Below, piece after piece: positions 4,449-33,448 of a DNA stretch of 33,448 nucleotides; position 1 is the first letter of the stretch; each line of letters opens with the position of its first letter. Made by a program: the position numbers and the translations under genes. Source of the stretch: Acidimicrobiaceae bacterium (GTDB lineage Bacteria > Actinomycetota > Acidimicrobiia > Acidimicrobiales > RAAP-2). The notes under the pieces are model-generated. The model made no database searches, had not been told where the DNA came from, and worked only from the letters and a program-made list of their open reading frames with translations. The DNA lies in assembly GCA_003138895.1 (NCBI GenBank), contig PLHJ01000020.1:81117-114564 (forward strand), in the 5' to 3' direction.

Positions 4449-5873
4449 ATGACTATCGTTCGCGATTCGTTCTACATCAATGGTGAGTGGGTCAAGGCCT
4501 CCTCCAAAGACACACTCGAGGTCACTTCGTCCGGCACCGGCGAGCTCTACGCGACCATTCCGTCGGGAACTGTCGAAGAAGCTAACGAGGCTGTCGAAGC
4601 AGCAGCAGCGGCGTTTACGTCGTGGTCCAACGTCAGCCCTAAAGAACGCGGTGAGTTCTTGCAGCGCATTTCGGAGAAGCTCGCCGAACGAGCCGACGAA
4701 ATCGCGCTCAACATCTCGAACGAGGTCGGTATGCCACTGATGCTCGCCAAGGGCATCCAGGTGGGCATCCCCACCGCAACGTTTGCCGACAACGCCCAGC
4801 GCGCCATGGAATTCACGTGGGAAGAAGAGGTCGGAAACTCATCACTCGTGCGCGAGCCCGTTGGTGTTGTGGCCGCCATCACGCCTTGGAACTACCCACT
4901 GCACCAGATCGCTAACAAAGTTGCGGCCTCACTGGCCGCAGGATGCACGGTGGTTTTAAAGCCCAGTGAAGTTGCACCGATCAACGCCTTCCTTTTGGCC
5001 GACATCATTCACGAGGTCGGACTGCCCAAGGGTGTCTTCAACATGGTGACCGGTCTTGGACCAGTCGTAGGCGAAGCCATCGTCGCGCACCCTAAAACCG
5101 ACATGGTGTCGTTCACTGGTTCCACCCGCGCTGGAAAGCGCGTTATGGAAATCGCATCACAGATGGTGAAGCGGGTTTCCCTGGAACTCGGTGGCAAGTC
5201 AGCCAACATTATTTTGGAAGGTGCCGATCTCACCAAAGCCGTTCCGGACGGAATCTTCAAGTGCTACTTGAATTCAGGACAAACCTGTTCCGCCCTGACG
5301 CGCATGTTGGTACCTCGCTCGAAGCTCAGCGAAGTCGAAGACCTCGCCGTTGCCGCGGCGGCTGGTTTTCAGCCCGCTGACCCAATCACGGGCACGAGTT
5401 TCATTGGACCGCTCGTCAGTGCCGCTCAACAGCAGCGTGTGAAGGACTACATCAAGAAAGGTGTTGACGAAGGTGCTCGCATCATTCTTGGTGGCACCGA
5501 CGCTCCCGAAGGACTGGAAAAGGGTCACTACGTGCAACCGACGATTTTTACGGACGTCAAGAATTCCATGACGATTGCGCAAGAGGAAATCTTCGGACCG
5601 GTACTTTCAATCATTCCTTACGACACGGAAGAAGAAGCCGTAGCGATTGCCAACGACAGTCTGTACGGACTCGCCGGCGGCGTCTGGGCCGAGAGTGACG
5701 AAAAGGCGTTCGAAGTCGCACGGAAGATCCGAACGGGCCAAGTGGAAATTAACGGTGGCGCATTCAACATTTTCGCCCCCTTCGGTGGCTACAAGCAGTC
5801 CGGCATCGGACGCGAGCTCGGCAAGTACGGATTTGAAGAGTTCCTCGAAGTGAAAGCCGTCCAGCACGGCTAG
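4449..5873 (+). CDS. NAD(P)-dependent aldehyde dehydrogenase
   Basis: 474 residues, full length for the ALDH superfamily. The oxyanion Asn148 is in TPWNYP and the cofactor-binding Lys171 in LKPSE. The glycine motif FTGSTRAG is at about 222-229, the general base Glu246 in LELGGK and the catalytic Cys280 in NSGQTC. All catalytic residues are intact. The enzyme oxidises an aldehyde to its acid; the substrate is not evident. A cytosolic location is expected. It begins with ATG after a G-rich ribosome-binding sequence and sits alone between tRNA-His and tRNA-Lys, so the neighbourhood gives no substrate clue. It is less like betaine-aldehyde and succinate-semialdehyde enzymes than generic actinobacterial family members. 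Confidence 0.9.
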
Positions 5874-5903
5874 TCGGCGACGTCGAGCGGGCGCGTGGCG
5901 ATG

Positions 5904-5909
5904 TAGACT
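5904..5909 (+). promoter_or_regulatory. -10 box of tRNA-Lys
   Basis: TAGACT lies six bases before the mature 5' G at 5916, so transcription would start at or next to the tRNA end. The -35 is poor. Confidence 0.4.
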
Positions 5910-5915
5910 CGTCAC

Positions 5916-5991
5916 GCGCCGATAGCTCAATTGGCAGAGCATTTGACTCTTAATCAACAGGTTCCGGGTTCAAGTCCCGGTCGGCGCACCA
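5916..5991 (+). tRNA. tRNA-Lys (anticodon CTT)
   Basis: The acceptor GCGCCGA pairs with TCGGCGC. The anticodon loop CTCTTAA (anticodon CTT) sits on a TTTGA/TCAAC stem whose outermost pair (27-43) is a T-C mismatch. The T-arm is CCGGG-TTCAAGT-CCCGG, with discriminator A and CCA encoded at 5989-5991. Confidence 0.96.
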
Positions 5992-5995
5992 TTTA

Positions 5996-6021
5996 AAACC
6001 CAAAGGACTCTTTGGGTTTTT
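5996..6021. terminator. rho-independent terminator shared by tRNA-Lys and the clpS-DUF2017 unit
   Basis: AAACCCAAAG (5996-6005), loop GACT, CTTTGGGTTT (6010-6019): a perfect 10-bp stem followed by further Ts. A-rich arms on one side and T-rich on the other let it work in both directions. It lies immediately between the tRNA 3' end and the DUF2017 stop codon (6023). Confidence 0.85.
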
Positions 6022-6022
6022 C

Positions 6023-6460
6023 TTACGACAAACATTCCGCCAGTTCGAAAAGTAATTGCTGCAGTGAATGGACTTCAACCAAGGTGCCTTCGTCGGCTTT
6101 CGCTAAGGCGTCTTCGCTTAGCAGTCCTTCGTTAAGGGCCAAAGAGCGAAGTGCGACTTGCAGCGTCATAAGCCACGCCCAACCTTCGCCGTCATTAATG
6201 AACTCTTCGTCAACACTCAGGACAACAAGTTCGGCGTTCGATGCGGTCGACTTTTGTCGAGCGAGCATTGATACGGGGTCGTCGATATCACGGCTCGGAT
6301 CAATGGGTGCTTGAAGTTGGCGGTGCCAGGCGTGATCGATGTCATTCTCCGCCGCCACGACATCTTCGGCAAATTGGCGGACCAAGTTTCGTCCGTGCTC
6401 GTTGAGACGAACTTCGATGCGTCCGTCTCGTCGGCGAATAAAAATTCGGTTCTTGCTCAC
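6023..6460 (-). CDS. DUF2017 family protein encoded after clpS
   Basis: 145 residues, acidic and helical, with no membrane segment. A basic N-terminus (IFIRRRDGRIEVRLNEHG) precedes LVRQFAEDVV and a C-terminal helical region. DUF2017 proteins are characteristically encoded beside clpS in actinomycetes; their biochemical role is not established. The start is GTG, two bases after the ClpS stop on the minus strand, so the two are co-transcribed and probably translationally coupled. This copy is somewhat shorter than typical family members. A link to ClpP adaptor function rests only on conserved neighbourhood. Confidence 0.8.
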   Translation of the reverse strand: MSKNRIFIRRRDGRIEVRLNEHGRNLVRQFAEDVVAAENDIDHAWHRQLQAPIDPSRDIDDPVSMLARQKSTASNAELVVLSVDEEFINDGEGWAWLMTLQVALRSLALNEGLLSEDALAKADEGTLVEVHSLQQLLFELAECLS

Positions 6461-6462
6461 GA

Positions 6463-6768
6463 CTAATTGTCCTGTTCAATCGTGGCTTGGAGACCGGCGA
6501 CGTGAAGTTTCACGCAGTACGTCTCAGCCCGCTCTCGTTCACCGGACCAGACAATTGCTTTTCCTTCGTGATGCACCGTCATCATTAACTTCGTGGCCTT
6601 CGCATTGGGATAACCAAAAATCTTCCTAAAAATGATGACGACCACGGACATGGGCGTGACCGGATCATCCCAAACGATCACGCTCCAGGGACGAAGCGTC
6701 TGAGTTTCTTCTTCGCTAATCGTGTCGGATTCAGTGGTAGTTCGACGCAATGGTTGTACGGAAGCCAC
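6463..6768 (-). CDS. clpS: ATP-dependent Clp protease adaptor ClpS
   Basis: 101 residues with the ClpS core from about residue 27. WDDPVTPM (33-40) contains the acidic substrate-pocket residues, followed by IFRKIFGY, ATKLMMTVHHEGKA (with the pocket His at 66/67) and KLHVAGLQATIE. ClpS delivers N-degron substrates to the ClpC/ClpA unfoldase for ClpP degradation. The actinobacterial form begins WDDPV where E. coli has a YNDD-type motif, and this copy follows that pattern. The GTG start is tentative because the disordered first 25 residues are not conserved. It is the first gene of the pair with DUF2017 and divergent from the MpaB-like gene. Confidence 0.93.
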   Translation of the reverse strand: MASVQPLRRTTTESDTISEEETQTLRPWSVIVWDDPVTPMSVVVIIFRKIFGYPNAKATKLMMTVHHEGKAIVWSGERERAETYCVKLHVAGLQATIEQDN

Positions 6769-29129: not shown

Positions 29130-29630
29130 TTACCGGACGAAACCGGTTACCACTATCTGAAACGGTGACGCCGAGGTATCCGGAATCGGACCAATGGGCC
29201 CACTGTTCGAATTTGACGTCACGAAAAGGCTCACATTCAAGTCCCTGAAATGAGCGGCCGGACCCGTTAACCGGTAATCATGATGAGCATATCCACCAAC
29301 ACAAAAACTATTGATTCCCGCCAAATAACTTGAACTGATACTGACGCCGTAACAGGTTTGTTTAGAGCTCTCATTCACTACACGAAGATCCAAATTTTCC
29401 GTCCTGAATTTGGTCGGCAGATTTGGTATCGACGACTCGCAGGTCTCGTAGTGCCCTATCGAAGAGCCATTGGAGCACGCCGCGTTTCCATCGAGCGTTC
29501 CAACAATATCGTTATTCCAGGCGTCGGACGTGGGAGTCGAATTTTTGTGTGCGCTGATTATCGCCGAACCTACTGACAAAATCAGAAGCATCGTCAGTAG
29601 TGCGTAAGGGCCAAATCGAGTCTTCGTCAC
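29130..29630 (-). CDS. hypothetical exported Cys-containing protein
   Basis: 166 residues. One N-terminal hydrophobic segment (9-28) after a short basic start suggests a signal peptide or anchor. The mature part has four cysteines (52, 64, 93, 110), likely two disulfides, and is rich in Ser, Asn and Thr, typical of an extracellular beta protein. No family is recognised. TAGCAT lies eight bases before GTG 29630, partly overlapping the stop of the hydrolase gene, so it could be transcribed separately (leaderless) or as the last gene of the epoxide-hydrolase-like operon, 11 bases after it. Confidence 0.65.
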   Translation of the reverse strand: MTKTRFGPYALLTMLLILSVGSAIISAHKNSTPTSDAWNNDIVGTLDGNAACSNGSSIGHYETCESSIPNLPTKFRTENLDLRVVNESSKQTCYGVSISSSYLAGINSFCVGGYAHHDYRLTGPAAHFRDLNVSLFVTSNSNSGPIGPIPDTSASPFQIVVTGFVR

Positions 29631-29641
29631 GGGCCTGCATG

Positions 29642-30541
29642 CTACATCGGAGAATGCCGTTTATTGGCCGTTCCAAGCAAAACCGGAAGCAGCGCTTGAG
29701 AAACCTCCGTCGGACGTTCTTCATGGCTGAAGAGACCGGCCCCTGTGATGACCGCAAGTTGGGCGTCGGGGAACGAGTCCACCATTTTCTTGGCCCACGC
29801 AACTGGAAAGAAGGCATCCTTCTCGCCCCATACAAGTTGGACCGGAACAGCAATTCGTTGATGCAGATCACTGAGTTCATTGACGTAGCGATATTCAAAA
29901 CTACGAAGCAACGTGACCGCGGCGAATTGACGTAATTTTTCGTCGTGCATCGGCTTCAAAAAGAACTCTGCGAATTCTCCATCAAGTAACGATGGGTCAG
30001 CAAACGCGTCGCCAAGAACTAACCGACTTCTTCGTAAACGAGGTCGGCCGCAAAGCCAACCAAGTACCGCGCCAAAACCAGGTGTTCGTCCGGAGGTAAT
30101 AAATGACTTGAATTTTCGACTCAAGCCAGTGGATTGTTCCGTGTCAATCAGTCCAAGTGCGCGTAGACGTGGATCGCCGGCCATGGCGTGACGAGAAATG
30201 AGCCCTCCACTATCGTGCCCGACCACCGCAACACTGTTCAGCCCAAGTTGGTCGACAACGCTTCGAACACTACGTATGTGATTCTCGAAGGACATGGGCG
30301 TTTGCGCCGAGAACTCACTTGATCCAGATCCCACAAGATCAATCACGTGGCACGTGACGTGGTCGGCCAAGTTTGGAAGGAGGCGGCGAAACGTCGCCCC
30401 ACTCACTGGCCAACCGTGCACGAACAAAACATCGGGACCGTTTCCTACGACACGGTAGGCAACCTTGCCCGTGCCGACGTCTATCAGCCGGTCTGGCTCG
30501 CGACGAAAGAGGTCTGCTGCCTCTTCGATGGAGATATTCAT
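29642..30541 (-). CDS. alpha/beta hydrolase with Asp nucleophile (epoxide hydrolase / haloalkane dehalogenase type)
   Basis: 299 residues. HGWP (42-45) is the oxyanion/HGXP motif of epoxide hydrolases and dehalogenases. The nucleophile elbow GHDSGG puts Asp110, not Ser, at the nucleophile position. The catalytic acid is probably Asp242 in GEKDAFFP, and the base His273 in SHEERP. The cap domain (about 130-210) contains the usual variable helices, where epoxide hydrolases carry ring-opening tyrosines; Tyr217/Tyr219 are candidates just after it. ATG overlaps the stop of the upstream gene (ATGA), so the two are translationally coupled. An epoxide or haloalkane substrate is inferred. Confidence 0.85.
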   Translation of the reverse strand: MNISIEEAADLFRREPDRLIDVGTGKVAYRVVGNGPDVLFVHGWPVSGATFRRLLPNLADHVTCHVIDLVGSGSSEFSAQTPMSFENHIRSVRSVVDQLGLNSVAVVGHDSGGLISRHAMAGDPRLRALGLIDTEQSTGLSRKFKSFITSGRTPGFGAVLGWLCGRPRLRRSRLVLGDAFADPSLLDGEFAEFFLKPMHDEKLRQFAAVTLLRSFEYRYVNELSDLHQRIAVPVQLVWGEKDAFFPVAWAKKMVDSFPDAQLAVITGAGLFSHEERPTEVSQALLPVLLGTANKRHSPM

Positions 30542-30930
30542 GACGCACTCGCGTCGTGAATCTTCGCGGCGGTGGCGAGATCGAAATAGTCACGCCACAC
30601 CGTGATCTTGCCGTCGTGTACCTCAAAGACACTGTTGACGGCAAGTTCTCGCCAACCAAAATCTAAGCGGTGGCGATCCAAGCGCTCAAAGAACACCGTC
30701 GGACCCGACGCAGCTCGACGCAAAATCAAGAATTCATTCTCGTGGATCGGAGCAAAAAACGGATCAAGCATTTCTCGAACTCCGGATGCGCCATAGACAG
30801 TGCCAATCGGAATGTTCGTGTATTCAACGTTTTCGAAAAGAAACGACATCGCAGTATCGAAATCCATCGCGATGAAGGCGTCGATGAACGCGTCCACCAC
30901 CTCCATAGGTTCTGTCAATTGCTTGGTCAT
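30538..30930 (-). CDS. limonene-1,2-epoxide hydrolase-family protein (EphG-like)
   Basis: 130 residues with the SnoaL/LEH cone fold. The residues of Rhodococcus limonene-epoxide hydrolase are conserved at constant offset: Tyr37 and Asn39 (for Tyr53, Asn55), Arg83 and Asp85 in ERLDR (for Arg99, Asp101), and Asp114 in WRDYFD (for Asp132, with a two-residue gap). This makes a catalytic epoxide hydrolase more likely than a generic SnoaL-like protein. AGAGGGG seven bases before the ATG is a strong ribosome-binding site. It is the first gene of the operon and divergent from a TetR regulator through two palindromes. Confidence 0.85.
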   Translation of the reverse strand: MTKQLTEPMEVVDAFIDAFIAMDFDTAMSFLFENVEYTNIPIGTVYGASGVREMLDPFFAPIHENEFLILRRAASGPTVFFERLDRHRLDFGWRELAVNSVFEVHDGKITVWRDYFDLATAAKIHDASAS

Positions 30931-30946
30931 TGGCGTACCCCTCTAT

Positions 30947-30964
30947 TTGTAGTGATCACTACGG
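30947..30964. promoter_or_regulatory. TetR operator 1 (palindrome)
   Basis: TTGTAGTGATCACTACGG contains the perfect 14-bp palindrome GTAGTGATCACTAC (30949-30962). It covers the predicted transcription start of the LEH gene and lies between the two divergent genes. Binding by the adjacent TetR is inferred. Confidence 0.8.
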
Positions 30965-30972
30965 AACTGTAG

Positions 30973-30990
30973 TTGCAGTGGTCACTACAA
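30973..30990. promoter_or_regulatory. TetR operator 2 (palindrome)
   Basis: TTGCAGTGGTCACTACAA; read on the other strand it is TTGTAGTGACCACTGCAA, nearly identical to operator 1. Centres are 26 bp apart. It covers the -10 box TACAAT (30986-30991) of the TetR gene and the spacer of the operon promoter, so one protein could repress both. Confidence 0.78.
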
Positions 30991-30991
30991 T
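30986..30991 (+). promoter_or_regulatory. -10 box TACAAT of the divergent TetR gene
   Basis: TACAAT ends eight bases before ATG 31000 with no ribosome-binding site between, so the repressor mRNA may be leaderless. It overlaps operator 2, implying autorepression. Confidence 0.55.
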
Positions 30992-30999
30992 CAAGCCCA

Positions 31000-31545
31000 A
31001 TGGGGCATAAACATACAAAGTCCGAAATTCTCGAGGGAGCGCTCGCCACGGCCTTCGAAGACGGCCTCAGCCAACTCACGTTCGGCCGAGTGGCCAAAAA
31101 GATAGGAATCAGCGACCGAGTTGTCGTGTACTACTTCCCCACCAAAGATGATCTGGTGGGCTCCGTCCTCGTTTCTATGGCTTTACAGCTTCAAGAAACG
31201 CTGAACCCAGTACTGACTGGTTCCGCACCGGATTATCTCGCGCTCATCCGCAACGTGTGGCCACACTTAGCACGACCGTCCGCTGACGCGATTTTCGCCC
31301 TTTTCTTTGAAGCAAACGGCCTGGCGGCGGCGGGACGTGAGCCGTACGTGACGCTCGTTCCCCAATTGGTCGAAGCTTTCATAGCGTGGGCTGCGACGTT
31401 TCTCAGTGGTACACCTCGACAGCGACGAACCGAAGCGGAGACGGCGATCGCGGTGCTCGACGGACTCTTACTGCTGCGCCAACTCGCTGGGCCAGAAGCC
31501 GCCAACAGAGCCGCTCGACGGGCTGGCGTTGCAAGGACGTCGTGA
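31000..31545 (+). CDS. TetR-family regulator of the epoxide-hydrolase-like operon
   Basis: About 181 residues from ATG 31000; the frame is open to TTG 30973, but that start would place coding sequence inside operator 2 and before the -10 box, so ATG 31000 is preferred. The helix-turn-helix LTFGRVAKKIGISDRVVVYYFPTKDDLV (blocks near 25-53) is canonical. The ligand-binding half is Ala/Leu-rich with a C-terminal RRAGVARTS tail. Likely a local repressor responding to an epoxide, terpene or product; the ligand is unknown. Confidence 0.88.
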   Translation: MGHKHTKSEILEGALATAFEDGLSQLTFGRVAKKIGISDRVVVYYFPTKDDLVGSVLVSMALQLQETLNPVLTGSAPDYLALIRNVWPHLARPSADAIFALFFEANGLAAAGREPYVTLVPQLVEAFIAWAATFLSGTPRQRRTEAETAIAVLDGLLLLRQLAGPEAANRAARRAGVARTS

Positions 31546-31588: not shown

Positions 31589-31972
31589 GTGAATCTTCCT
31601 CGACTGCACCTCATTGCGCTTGATTGTCCCAATCCCTATGCGCTTGCGCAGTTTTATTCGGCACTGACCGGCATCGACGTGGAAACGTGGCCCGGTTATC
31701 CTCCCGAAGATATGCCCGGCATCGACTTAGTGCACGACGTGCTGCCGGCTTTGAGTTTTCAAAAAGTGGAGAACTACGTTGCACCCAACTGGCCCGAGGG
31801 AGAGATTCCTCAGCAGATACACCTTGACTTCGAAGTCGACGACCTTGACGAAGGCGAGAAGCATGCCTTAAGCGTTGGCGCTCGCAAGGCTGACTTCCAA
31901 CCCGGAGAAACCTTCAGGGTGTTTCTAGACCCGGTCGGGCACCCCTTTTGCTTGATTTTGAAGAACGATTAA
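31589..31972 (+). CDS. VOC-family (glyoxalase-like) protein
   Basis: 127 residues. LHLIALDCPNPYALAQFYSALTG (split near 6-28), LSFQKVENY, HLDFEVDDLDEGEKHALSVGA and the C-terminal RVFLDPVGHPFCLIL are the standard features of the glyoxalase-like domain common in actinomycetes (PF18029-like). Possible metal ligands are His7 and His98. Activity unknown. It is the same strand as TetR and might belong to its transcript, which would tie it to the epoxide-hydrolase-like cassette; the separate -10 box argues against. Confidence 0.83.
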   Translation: MNLPRLHLIALDCPNPYALAQFYSALTGIDVETWPGYPPEDMPGIDLVHDVLPALSFQKVENYVAPNWPEGEIPQQIHLDFEVDDLDEGEKHALSVGARKADFQPGETFRVFLDPVGHPFCLILKND

Positions 31973-32941: not shown

Positions 32942-33448
32942 TTACGAACAGCCGCTCGTCGCTCCGCAACTTGAGCAGACGTAGCAAGAGCCTGCTCGTT
33001 GCATCGAGTTTCCACACGAGTAGCACATTGGAGAATCCGACTGTTGTCCGCGCAACACGGGCTCATTAGTCGGCGCTGGCTTCGTAGCCAATTCCACCAC
33101 CATTGGTGTCGATTCGATGCCTACCGATGGCGTACTCTGCTCCACCACCTCGGGAAGCGTCGGCTGAATGCGCTCGCTGGTCGACAGAATTCCTAATTCT
33201 TCACGGTCAGTTGGCGTTAAGTAGTCGAGCGCGAGGCGACGGAAAATGTAGTCCACGAGCGACGTCGCAATACGCAGATCAGCGTCGTCGGTCATGCCCG
33301 AAGGCTCGAACTTCATATTCACGTACTTTCGAACGTACGTCGCGAGCGGCACACCGTGTTGGAGGCCAAGGCTGATTGAGATCGAGAAGGCGTCCATGAT
33401 GCCCGCCAACGTCGATCCCTGCTTACTCACCTTGATGAACACTTCACC
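32942..33448 (-). CDS. nrdJ: adenosylcobalamin-dependent (class II) ribonucleoside-diphosphate reductase, C-terminal part
   Basis: The gene continues beyond the right edge; about 168 C-terminal residues are visible. GEVFIKVSKQGSTLAGIMDAF and MKFEPSGMTDDADLRIATSLVDYIFRRLALDYL are typical of NrdJ of the large actinobacterial type (motifs overlap several segments). The end carries a zinc-ribbon-like CYSCGNSM...CYVCSSCGATSGCS with six cysteines, the redox-active tail expected to regenerate the active-site disulfide. A Pro/Val/Thr-rich linker of about 45 residues separates the two. The enzyme makes deoxyribonucleotides independently of oxygen but needs B12. Confidence 0.93.
   Translation of the reverse strand, partial: GEVFIKVSKQGSTLAGIMDAFSISISLGLQHGVPLATYVRKYVNMKFEPSGMTDDADLRIATSLVDYIFRRLALDYLTPTDREELGILSTSERIQPTLPEVVEQSTPSVGIESTPMVVELATKPAPTNEPVLRGQQSDSPMCYSCGNSMQRAGSCYVCSSCGATSGCS

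Follow-up and report, generated by a model that had tools for sequence, protein, structure and literature searches.

The 33,448-nucleotide stretch of DNA analysed here (the window; contig PLHJ01000020.1 of the Acidimicrobiaceae assembly GCA_003138895.1) contains a unit of three genes, in which the gene for a TetR-family regulator (TetR) diverges from two overlapping genes that encode a protein of the limonene-epoxide-hydrolase family (LEH) and an alpha/beta hydrolase with an aspartate nucleophile (ABH). Each product has a Pfam match above the respective cut-off (LEH, PF07858, 104.5 bits against 24; ABH, Abhydrolase_1, 81.6 bits against 25.8; TetR, TetR_N, 36.1 bits against 24), and the start of TetR was set at ATG 31000, which gives the MGHKHT-like start common to its relatives, and not at the longer TTG 30973 of the open reading frame list. 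An earlier account made from the letters of this DNA (the sequence-only reading) had described a divergently controlled unit with the complete Tyr/Asn/Arg/Asp/Asp set in an LEH-fold protein, ATGA coupling of LEH to ABH, an HGWP motif and an Asp nucleophile within GHDSGG in ABH, and a 69-bp intergenic region common with TetR, all of which were recovered (Table 1).

The intergenic region contains a putative promoter for LEH and ABH and two predicted operators. When 43 divergent TetR intergenic regions (TetR/ABH or TetR/LEH-ABH, the window included) were surveyed for sites with no more than three mismatches to GTAGTGRYCACTAC, paired sites were present in 40, at a distance of 24-29 bp (26 bp in 25 of the 40), TTGA stood directly upstream of the first site in 37, and the operator pair occurred in none of 8600 base-shuffled intergenic regions. 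Three of the 43 regions repeat others (L059, L061 and L065 repeat L092, L105 and L117) and those of L077, L124 and L129 are near-identical; therefore, the independent number is lower. In the host assembly (1.74 Mb in 26 contigs, 85.93% complete), the two sites of the window are the only copies with 0 or 1 mismatch, and 22 sites have up to two mismatches versus 45 for the reversed pattern, so the regulator looks local there. Among 10 ABH genes that have no detected neighbouring regulator, the operator pair was found in three (L103, L107 and L122) and a single site in two (L096 and L112), which suggests control in trans, from a distance.

Table 1. Positions of the three genes and of the predicted control elements, numbered from the first base of the window.
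Feature	Position	Strand	Basis or placement
ABH, Asp-nucleophile alpha/beta hydrolase, 299 amino acids, D110/D242/H273, HGWP 42-45	29642..30541	-	Open reading frame, Pfam, alignment, model
LEH, limonene-epoxide-hydrolase-family protein, 130 amino acids, Y37/N39/R83/D85/D114	30538..30930	-	Open reading frame, Pfam, alignment, fold
ATGA overlap, LEH stop and ABH start	30538..30541	-	Sequence
Intergenic region, 69 bp, putative promoter and two predicted operators	30931..30999		Sequence, conservation
Putative ribosome-binding site before LEH, AGAGGGG	30938..30944	-	Predicted from sequence
Predicted operator 2, GTAGTGATCACTAC, no mismatch	30949..30962		Just 3' of putative -10; 26 bp from operator 1
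Putative -10, TACAGT	30966..30971	-	Predicted from sequence; 17 bp from -35, between operators
Predicted operator 1, 14-bp near-palindrome, 1 mismatch to GTAGTGRYCACTAC	30975..30988		In spacer of putative -35/-10
Putative -35 of LEH-ABH promoter, TTGATT	30989..30994	-	Predicted from sequence, TTGA conservation
TetR-family regulator, 181 amino acids from ATG 31000	31000..31545	+	Open reading frame, Pfam, relatives

The same arrangement recurs in other genomes. Relatives of ABH were taken from one scan of a species-genome collection (the best 80 of 218), and the 69 loci with at least 45% identity were counted. A TetR related to that of the window was detected beside ABH in 38 of these loci (divergently in 35), an MmyB-like regulator in 17 and neither in 14, some of which are at contig ends. 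LEH is located between TetR and ABH in six loci (L078, L080, L081, L088, L091 and L138), with LEH proteins 63-73% identical to that of the window, and it overlaps ABH by ATGA or GTGA in four of them, the gaps in the other two being 4 bp (L080) and 26 bp (L138). The conserved synteny that the sequence-only reading had suggested looking for is therefore present, and an objection from a failure of the genes to co-occur does not hold because of these six orthologous loci; that TetR-ABH without LEH is commoner than TetR-LEH-ABH had been missed. At L108, a DUF2834 membrane protein (5665-5964) occupies the slot of LEH between TetR and ABH.

The ABH relatives are found mostly in Acidimicrobiales, Acidimicrobiia and Actinomycetota records, and also in Salinispora, Mycobacterium and myxobacterial ones, and a TetR-ABH unit occurs in the named strain Actinomycetospora chibensis JCM 17987 (L106); their flanking genes were clustered, and annotated for part of them. 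Among 396 genomes drawn from the phylum, ABH was detected (E 1e-35) in six, of which the five besides the window's all lie outside its genus. Within the order, 17 of the 298 genomes searched had TetR, and besides the window these comprise eight in which TetR is divergent with ABH, two with ABH in the same direction, one with a weak (24%) ABH, one with LEH and no ABH, and four with neither. In viral contigs, seven stretches fit the LEH pattern, none of them encoding a relative.

The MmyB-like regulator is divergent from ABH at L084, L085, L090, L093, L099, L100, L116, L119, L125, L127, L128 and L133, and runs in the same direction at L131, L135, L136, L137 and L139; two of these proteins were assigned by Pfam (PF17765) and the rest by similarity. 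For the 12 ABH genes with a divergent MmyB-like regulator, the upstream 300 bp contained no TetR operator within two mismatches. In a solved member of the MmyB-like family, the bound ligand was tentatively identified as myristic acid (PMC3406030; papers are cited here by PubMed Central (PMC) number, from the part of each text that was covered), so the presence of this regulator beside ABH relatives gives, by analogy, a faint hint of a lipophilic ligand. At L135, from Salinispora, a cytochrome P450 gene precedes the ABH gene that lies downstream of the MmyB-like regulator.

LEH has the sequence and fold features of its family. Its residues Y37, N39, R83, D85 and D114 align with Tyr53, Asn55, Arg99, Asp101 and Asp132 of the Rhodococcus enzyme, in which Asp132 deprotonates the water, Asp101 donates a proton to the oxirane, both aspartates are held by Arg99, and Tyr53 and Asn55 position the water (PMC3734700), and all five are invariant in the 10 proteins aligned. 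The best Foldseek match to its predicted fold is 5aif (E 9.4e-11, template-modelling score 0.80 by query length), obtained with models of which the best of five is only fair (predicted local distance difference test score, pLDDT, 82.1; the other four, 61.2 to 49.7). Compared with its counterparts in L078, L088 and L138, the LEH gene differs at 66, 64 and 70 third codon positions versus 28, 30 and 27 first and 14, 12 and 18 second positions, a pattern which, by this codon count, is that of purifying selection. Because of this pattern and of the gene order that recurs in six other loci, the unit appears to be more than a chance association. With these residues, this fold and the Pfam match, LEH is likely an epoxide-opening enzyme, an activity predicted from sequence and model.

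For ABH, an alignment of 71 proteins was used (the window included; L140, which has a match in two frames and a long branch, was left out). The H, G and P of HGXP are present in all 71, G73 and S75 of the GxSmxS pattern are kept in at least 95%, and the catalytic triad is found as D110 in 66, D242 in 70 and H273 in 69, the window protein having all three. No protein carries a serine at the nucleophile elbow (Asp in 66, Asn in five), as a serine alpha/beta hydrolase such as an esterase or C-C hydrolase would. The five with Asn (GHNSGG; L107, L109, L112, L114 and L130) retain the His and the second Asp and lie on several branches of the ABH tree. Alpha/beta epoxide hydrolases are described as having two cap tyrosines together with the motifs HGXP and GxSmxS (PMC6198070), and Cif-type epoxide hydrolases a His-Tyr pair, one tyrosine being replaceable (PMC8244358); sequence alignment found neither pair in ABH, with Tyr in at most 10 of 71 proteins in any of columns 120-249. 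In haloalkane dehalogenases the halide is held by a Trp plus a Trp or Asn (PMC10503415), whereas the residue after the ABH nucleophile is Ser in 70 of 71 (Ser111 in the window) and the first halide position is Trp44, not Asn, which leaves neither the Trp-Trp nor the Trp-Asn arrangement. The polar residues kept in 90% across columns 130-232 are T134, E135, R170, R171, D182, D187, E192 and H227.

Structural comparison places ABH (model pLDDT 96.4) closest to the subfamily III haloalkane dehalogenase-like protein DhmeA (8ooh; Z 32.5 over 269 aligned residues), followed at Z 30 by a Burkholderia alpha/beta hydrolase and by DhmeA in another entry. Dehalogenases, epoxide hydrolases (8zp6, Z 29.2; 9c2g, Z 29.0; 8hgu, Z 28.8), C-C hydrolases and esterases cluster at Z 28-30, and fold comparison was set aside as a way of deciding the reaction, since these enzyme classes are tied and only 8ooh lies above them. 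Fluoroacetate dehalogenases top the Foldseek list, in which the 50 matches listed are 19-25% identical to ABH; by sequence, haloalkane dehalogenases are the top PDB matches (E 6.6e-17), and a profile of the ABH alignment gave no PDB match at E 1e-35, the sole threshold tried. The claim of the sequence-only reading that the unit holds two epoxide-opening enzymes is thus supported for LEH, by fold, Pfam match and the five residues, and not for ABH, in which alignment shows neither the cap tyrosines nor the halide Trp. By alignment, ABH as an epoxide-opening enzyme is not supported, and the description 'two epoxide hydrolases' is unproven.

A tree of ABH proteins suggests that LEH is an optional member of the unit. 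This tree has 72 rows, among them L140; relatives below 45% identity and L059, L061, L065, L069, L071, L144 and L145 were left out. Of the 14 members of the supported clade (98/83) that contains the window, six have LEH, counting the window itself. L089, the sister of the LEH-bearing L078 (99/94), retains an in-frame LEH remnant in which the start and the end of LEH are joined and the ATGA coupling is kept; of the 24 bases before its ABH, 22 match the LEH end of L078, versus at most 13 in 60 loci outside the clade. In the close group of L077, L124 and L129, a match of 16 of 24 points to a shorter, likely LEH remnant. L094 has no LEH though its sister L088 (100/100) does, and in L094, L074 (14/24) and L076 (12/24) LEH is missing with no clear scar. 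Small open reading frames in L075 and L092 were rejected as LEH scars, L075 being outside the 14 best matches and L092 outside the clade.

Other genomes show LEH and ABH apart from each other. When 397 genomes of the order were searched with an LEH profile, 72 gave a match (E 1e-25), and the four top-scoring genomes (the window's, G778, G760 and G311) are all linked to this TetR or to its operator; TetR is absent from the flanks of the next 11 LEH loci, where the identity of any ABH does not exceed 24%. In G778, a lone intact LEH has its own operator pair, 25 bp apart, and an intact TetR-ABH pair on another contig has operators that are also 25 bp apart, within an intergenic sequence identical to that of L101. 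In G760, a broken LEH adjoins TetR, and a different contig carries a broken ABH (L144, ~6001-6609) that has an operator pair of its own; this ABH has lost the nucleophile region through an internal, in-frame deletion and is 204 residues long, versus a median of 292 among relatives. In G311, a 43%-identical TetR faces LEH and a small membrane protein, and there is a single operator and no ABH; the membrane-type protein, of 131 amino acids and with no Pfam match, is encoded between TetR and LEH (L036:1868-2263). From these gene contents, ABH is most likely the core of the regulon, and LEH an accessory under the same operator that some lineages retain, others have lost and others carry at a different site. 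That LEH and ABH are under one operator even when apart, as in G778, argues for a common compound class, and the persistence of ABH after LEH loss argues that ABH does not need the product of LEH.

We propose, at a probability of roughly 60%, that the unit is a ligand-inducible detoxification or catabolic operon with CifR-Cif-type logic, in which ABH is the core enzyme and LEH the accessory one. In the absence of ligand, TetR would occupy the two palindromic operators, one in the -35/-10 spacer and one just after the -10, and, as their position and conservation suggest, would block transcription of LEH and ABH. By analogy with CifR, TetR would be released by a small molecule that is probably lipophilic and is most likely either the substrate itself or an epoxide derived from it. 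The single transcript would yield LEH, predicted from its residues to open an epoxide to a diol with machinery of the Asp101-Arg99-Asp132 type, and ABH, which, coupled through ATGA, would attack a substrate of the same compound class via Asp110, the covalent ester intermediate being released by His273 and Asp242, residues that are all present. LEH would belong to the regulon where an epoxide step is useful.

The closest circuit is that of Pseudomonas aeruginosa, in which CifR, a TetR repressor released by certain epoxides, controls cif (PMC8244358). Both systems have a divergent TetR gene and a shared intergenic region that controls an Asp-nucleophile alpha/beta hydrolase, the sites in the unit described here being predicted by sequence conservation; two CifR binding sites are mentioned in the title of a paper cited by PMC8244358. 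The cif operon includes morB and a major facilitator superfamily gene, whereas LEH is not named in the portion of PMC8244358 covered; Cif-like genes also occur in Acinetobacter and Burkholderia. In addition, Cif has a His-Tyr pair and ABH, by alignment, does not. LEH shares PF07858, the fold and the five catalytic residues with the limonene-1,2-epoxide hydrolase family (the Rhodococcus enzyme, the Mycobacterium tuberculosis LEH-like protein 2bng and the metagenomic 5aif, 5aih and 5aii), and differs in being at most 37% identical to solved structures among the 50 fold matches listed and in belonging to a subgroup tied to one predicted TetR operator. ABH and DhmeA (8ooh) have Asp-His-Asp in common, and differ in that the halide-binding Asn and Trp are replaced in ABH by Trp44 and Ser111. 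With alpha/beta epoxide hydrolases (CH65-EH, Sibe-EH, MdEH and isobutylene epoxide hydrolase), ABH shares HGXP, Asp-His-Asp and, in part, GxSmxS (PMC6198070), and differs, by alignment, in the cap tyrosine pair.

Several explanations of ABH compete. Tentatively, and with the odds leaning against it, ABH could represent a catalytic group of its own among the Asp-nucleophile alpha/beta hydrolases, in which conserved cap Arg, Asp and Glu residues replace the epoxide hydrolase tyrosines and the dehalogenase Trp and some members naturally have an Asn nucleophile, and could act within a scattered TetR regulon in which LEH feeds or is fed by ABH on one lipophilic compound class that passes an epoxide step and a second displacement step. 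It seems unlikely that the unit encodes two stereocomplementary or sequential epoxide hydrolases, ABH using a non-standard ring-opening residue and LEH handling the other enantiomer or a second epoxide: the conserved Asp-His-Asp, HGXP, G73 and S75, the replaceable tyrosine of Cif-type enzymes (PMC8244358) and the closeness of 8zp6, 9c2g and 8hgu would fit such an enzyme, but there is no well-kept tyrosine or His-Tyr pair in the cap, the polar residues retained there are of other kinds, and the Z-scores are shared with dehalogenases, C-C hydrolases and esterases. Quite improbable is a haloalkane or haloacid dehalogenase-like ABH, with LEH removing an epoxide formed from a halohydrin, since the leading PDB, DhmeA and fluoroacetate dehalogenase matches that speak for it are offset by Ser after the nucleophile, by Trp44 in place of Asn and by the low identity of the Foldseek matches; OleB, of the same haloalkane dehalogenase subfamily III as DhmeA, performs beta-lactone chemistry instead (PMC10503415). 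That ABH is no longer mainly a hydrolase and serves as a ligand-binding or sequestering protein is highly improbable, the natural Asn nucleophiles notwithstanding, given how widely Asp110, His273 and Asp242 are retained.

It is also improbable that LEH and ABH are mere neighbours, LEH having entered an ABH operon by chance and using its promoter without belonging to a common pathway. Close relatives that keep ABH without LEH, such as L089 with its remnant and L094, the sister of L088, are what such an insertion would produce, but the LEH subgroup is found behind the same operator away from ABH and TetR in G778 and opposite a related TetR without ABH in G311, the four best LEH genomes of 397 are linked to TetR or its operator when the next 11 loci are not, and both enzymes are broken in G760.

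Other observations weigh against the proposed ligand-inducible operon, in which ABH is the core enzyme and LEH an accessory. LEH was found in none of the 36 other genomes of the window's genus, so the unit may have entered that genus recently. L138 has LEH and yet groups with LEH-less loci, specifically with L108 (100/90), away from the clade of the window, and the presence of LEH needs at least five changes on the ABH tree, both of which count against a simple single gain of LEH. The trees of TetR and LEH have poor resolution and do not establish common descent of the three genes as a unit; dating of the gene joining from them was abandoned for the same reason. The operator pair is missing from three of the 43 intergenic regions (L108, L134 and L140). 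By alignment, ABH has no residues that would predict its reaction, and an Asn at the nucleophile position is unexpected in an enzyme that relies on this residue. The three-gene unit of the window includes neither a transporter nor a monooxygenase.

The surroundings of the unit were also compared. A Glyoxalase_6 protein (31589-31972, + strand) adjoins TetR, an open reading frame of 166 amino acids directly 3' of ABH (29130-29630, - strand) has no match in Pfam or NCBIfam, and 32942-33448 (- strand) encodes the C-terminal part of a vitamin B12-dependent ribonucleotide reductase that is cut by the window end. Of 61 genomes in the genus (its own included), 51 have relatives of the Glyoxalase_6 protein and 24 have relatives of a mycothiol-type gene. 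Among 19 other glyoxalase and 19 other mycothiol-type loci, with flanks of ~1.5 kb, there was no empty site for comparison, and no other tested window gene lay beside these relatives. A foreign base composition was considered and gave no signal, the G+C content being 54.5% for the cassette and 55.2% for the window.

Every part of this unit belongs to a known superfamily and its circuit has precedent. ABH and its relatives may constitute a new catalytic group; among the matches listed in the open-licence PMC literature, there was no description of a unit of LEH, an alpha/beta hydrolase and TetR. The ABH proteins illustrate that HGWP and an Asp nucleophile alone do not make an epoxide hydrolase. 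With a single TetR, a 14-bp operator and two enzymes, the regulon is testable, and an operator search can locate one or both enzymes where they lie apart from the regulator. Analysis of the regulon would reveal the role of an uncharacterised group of Asp-nucleophile hydrolases.

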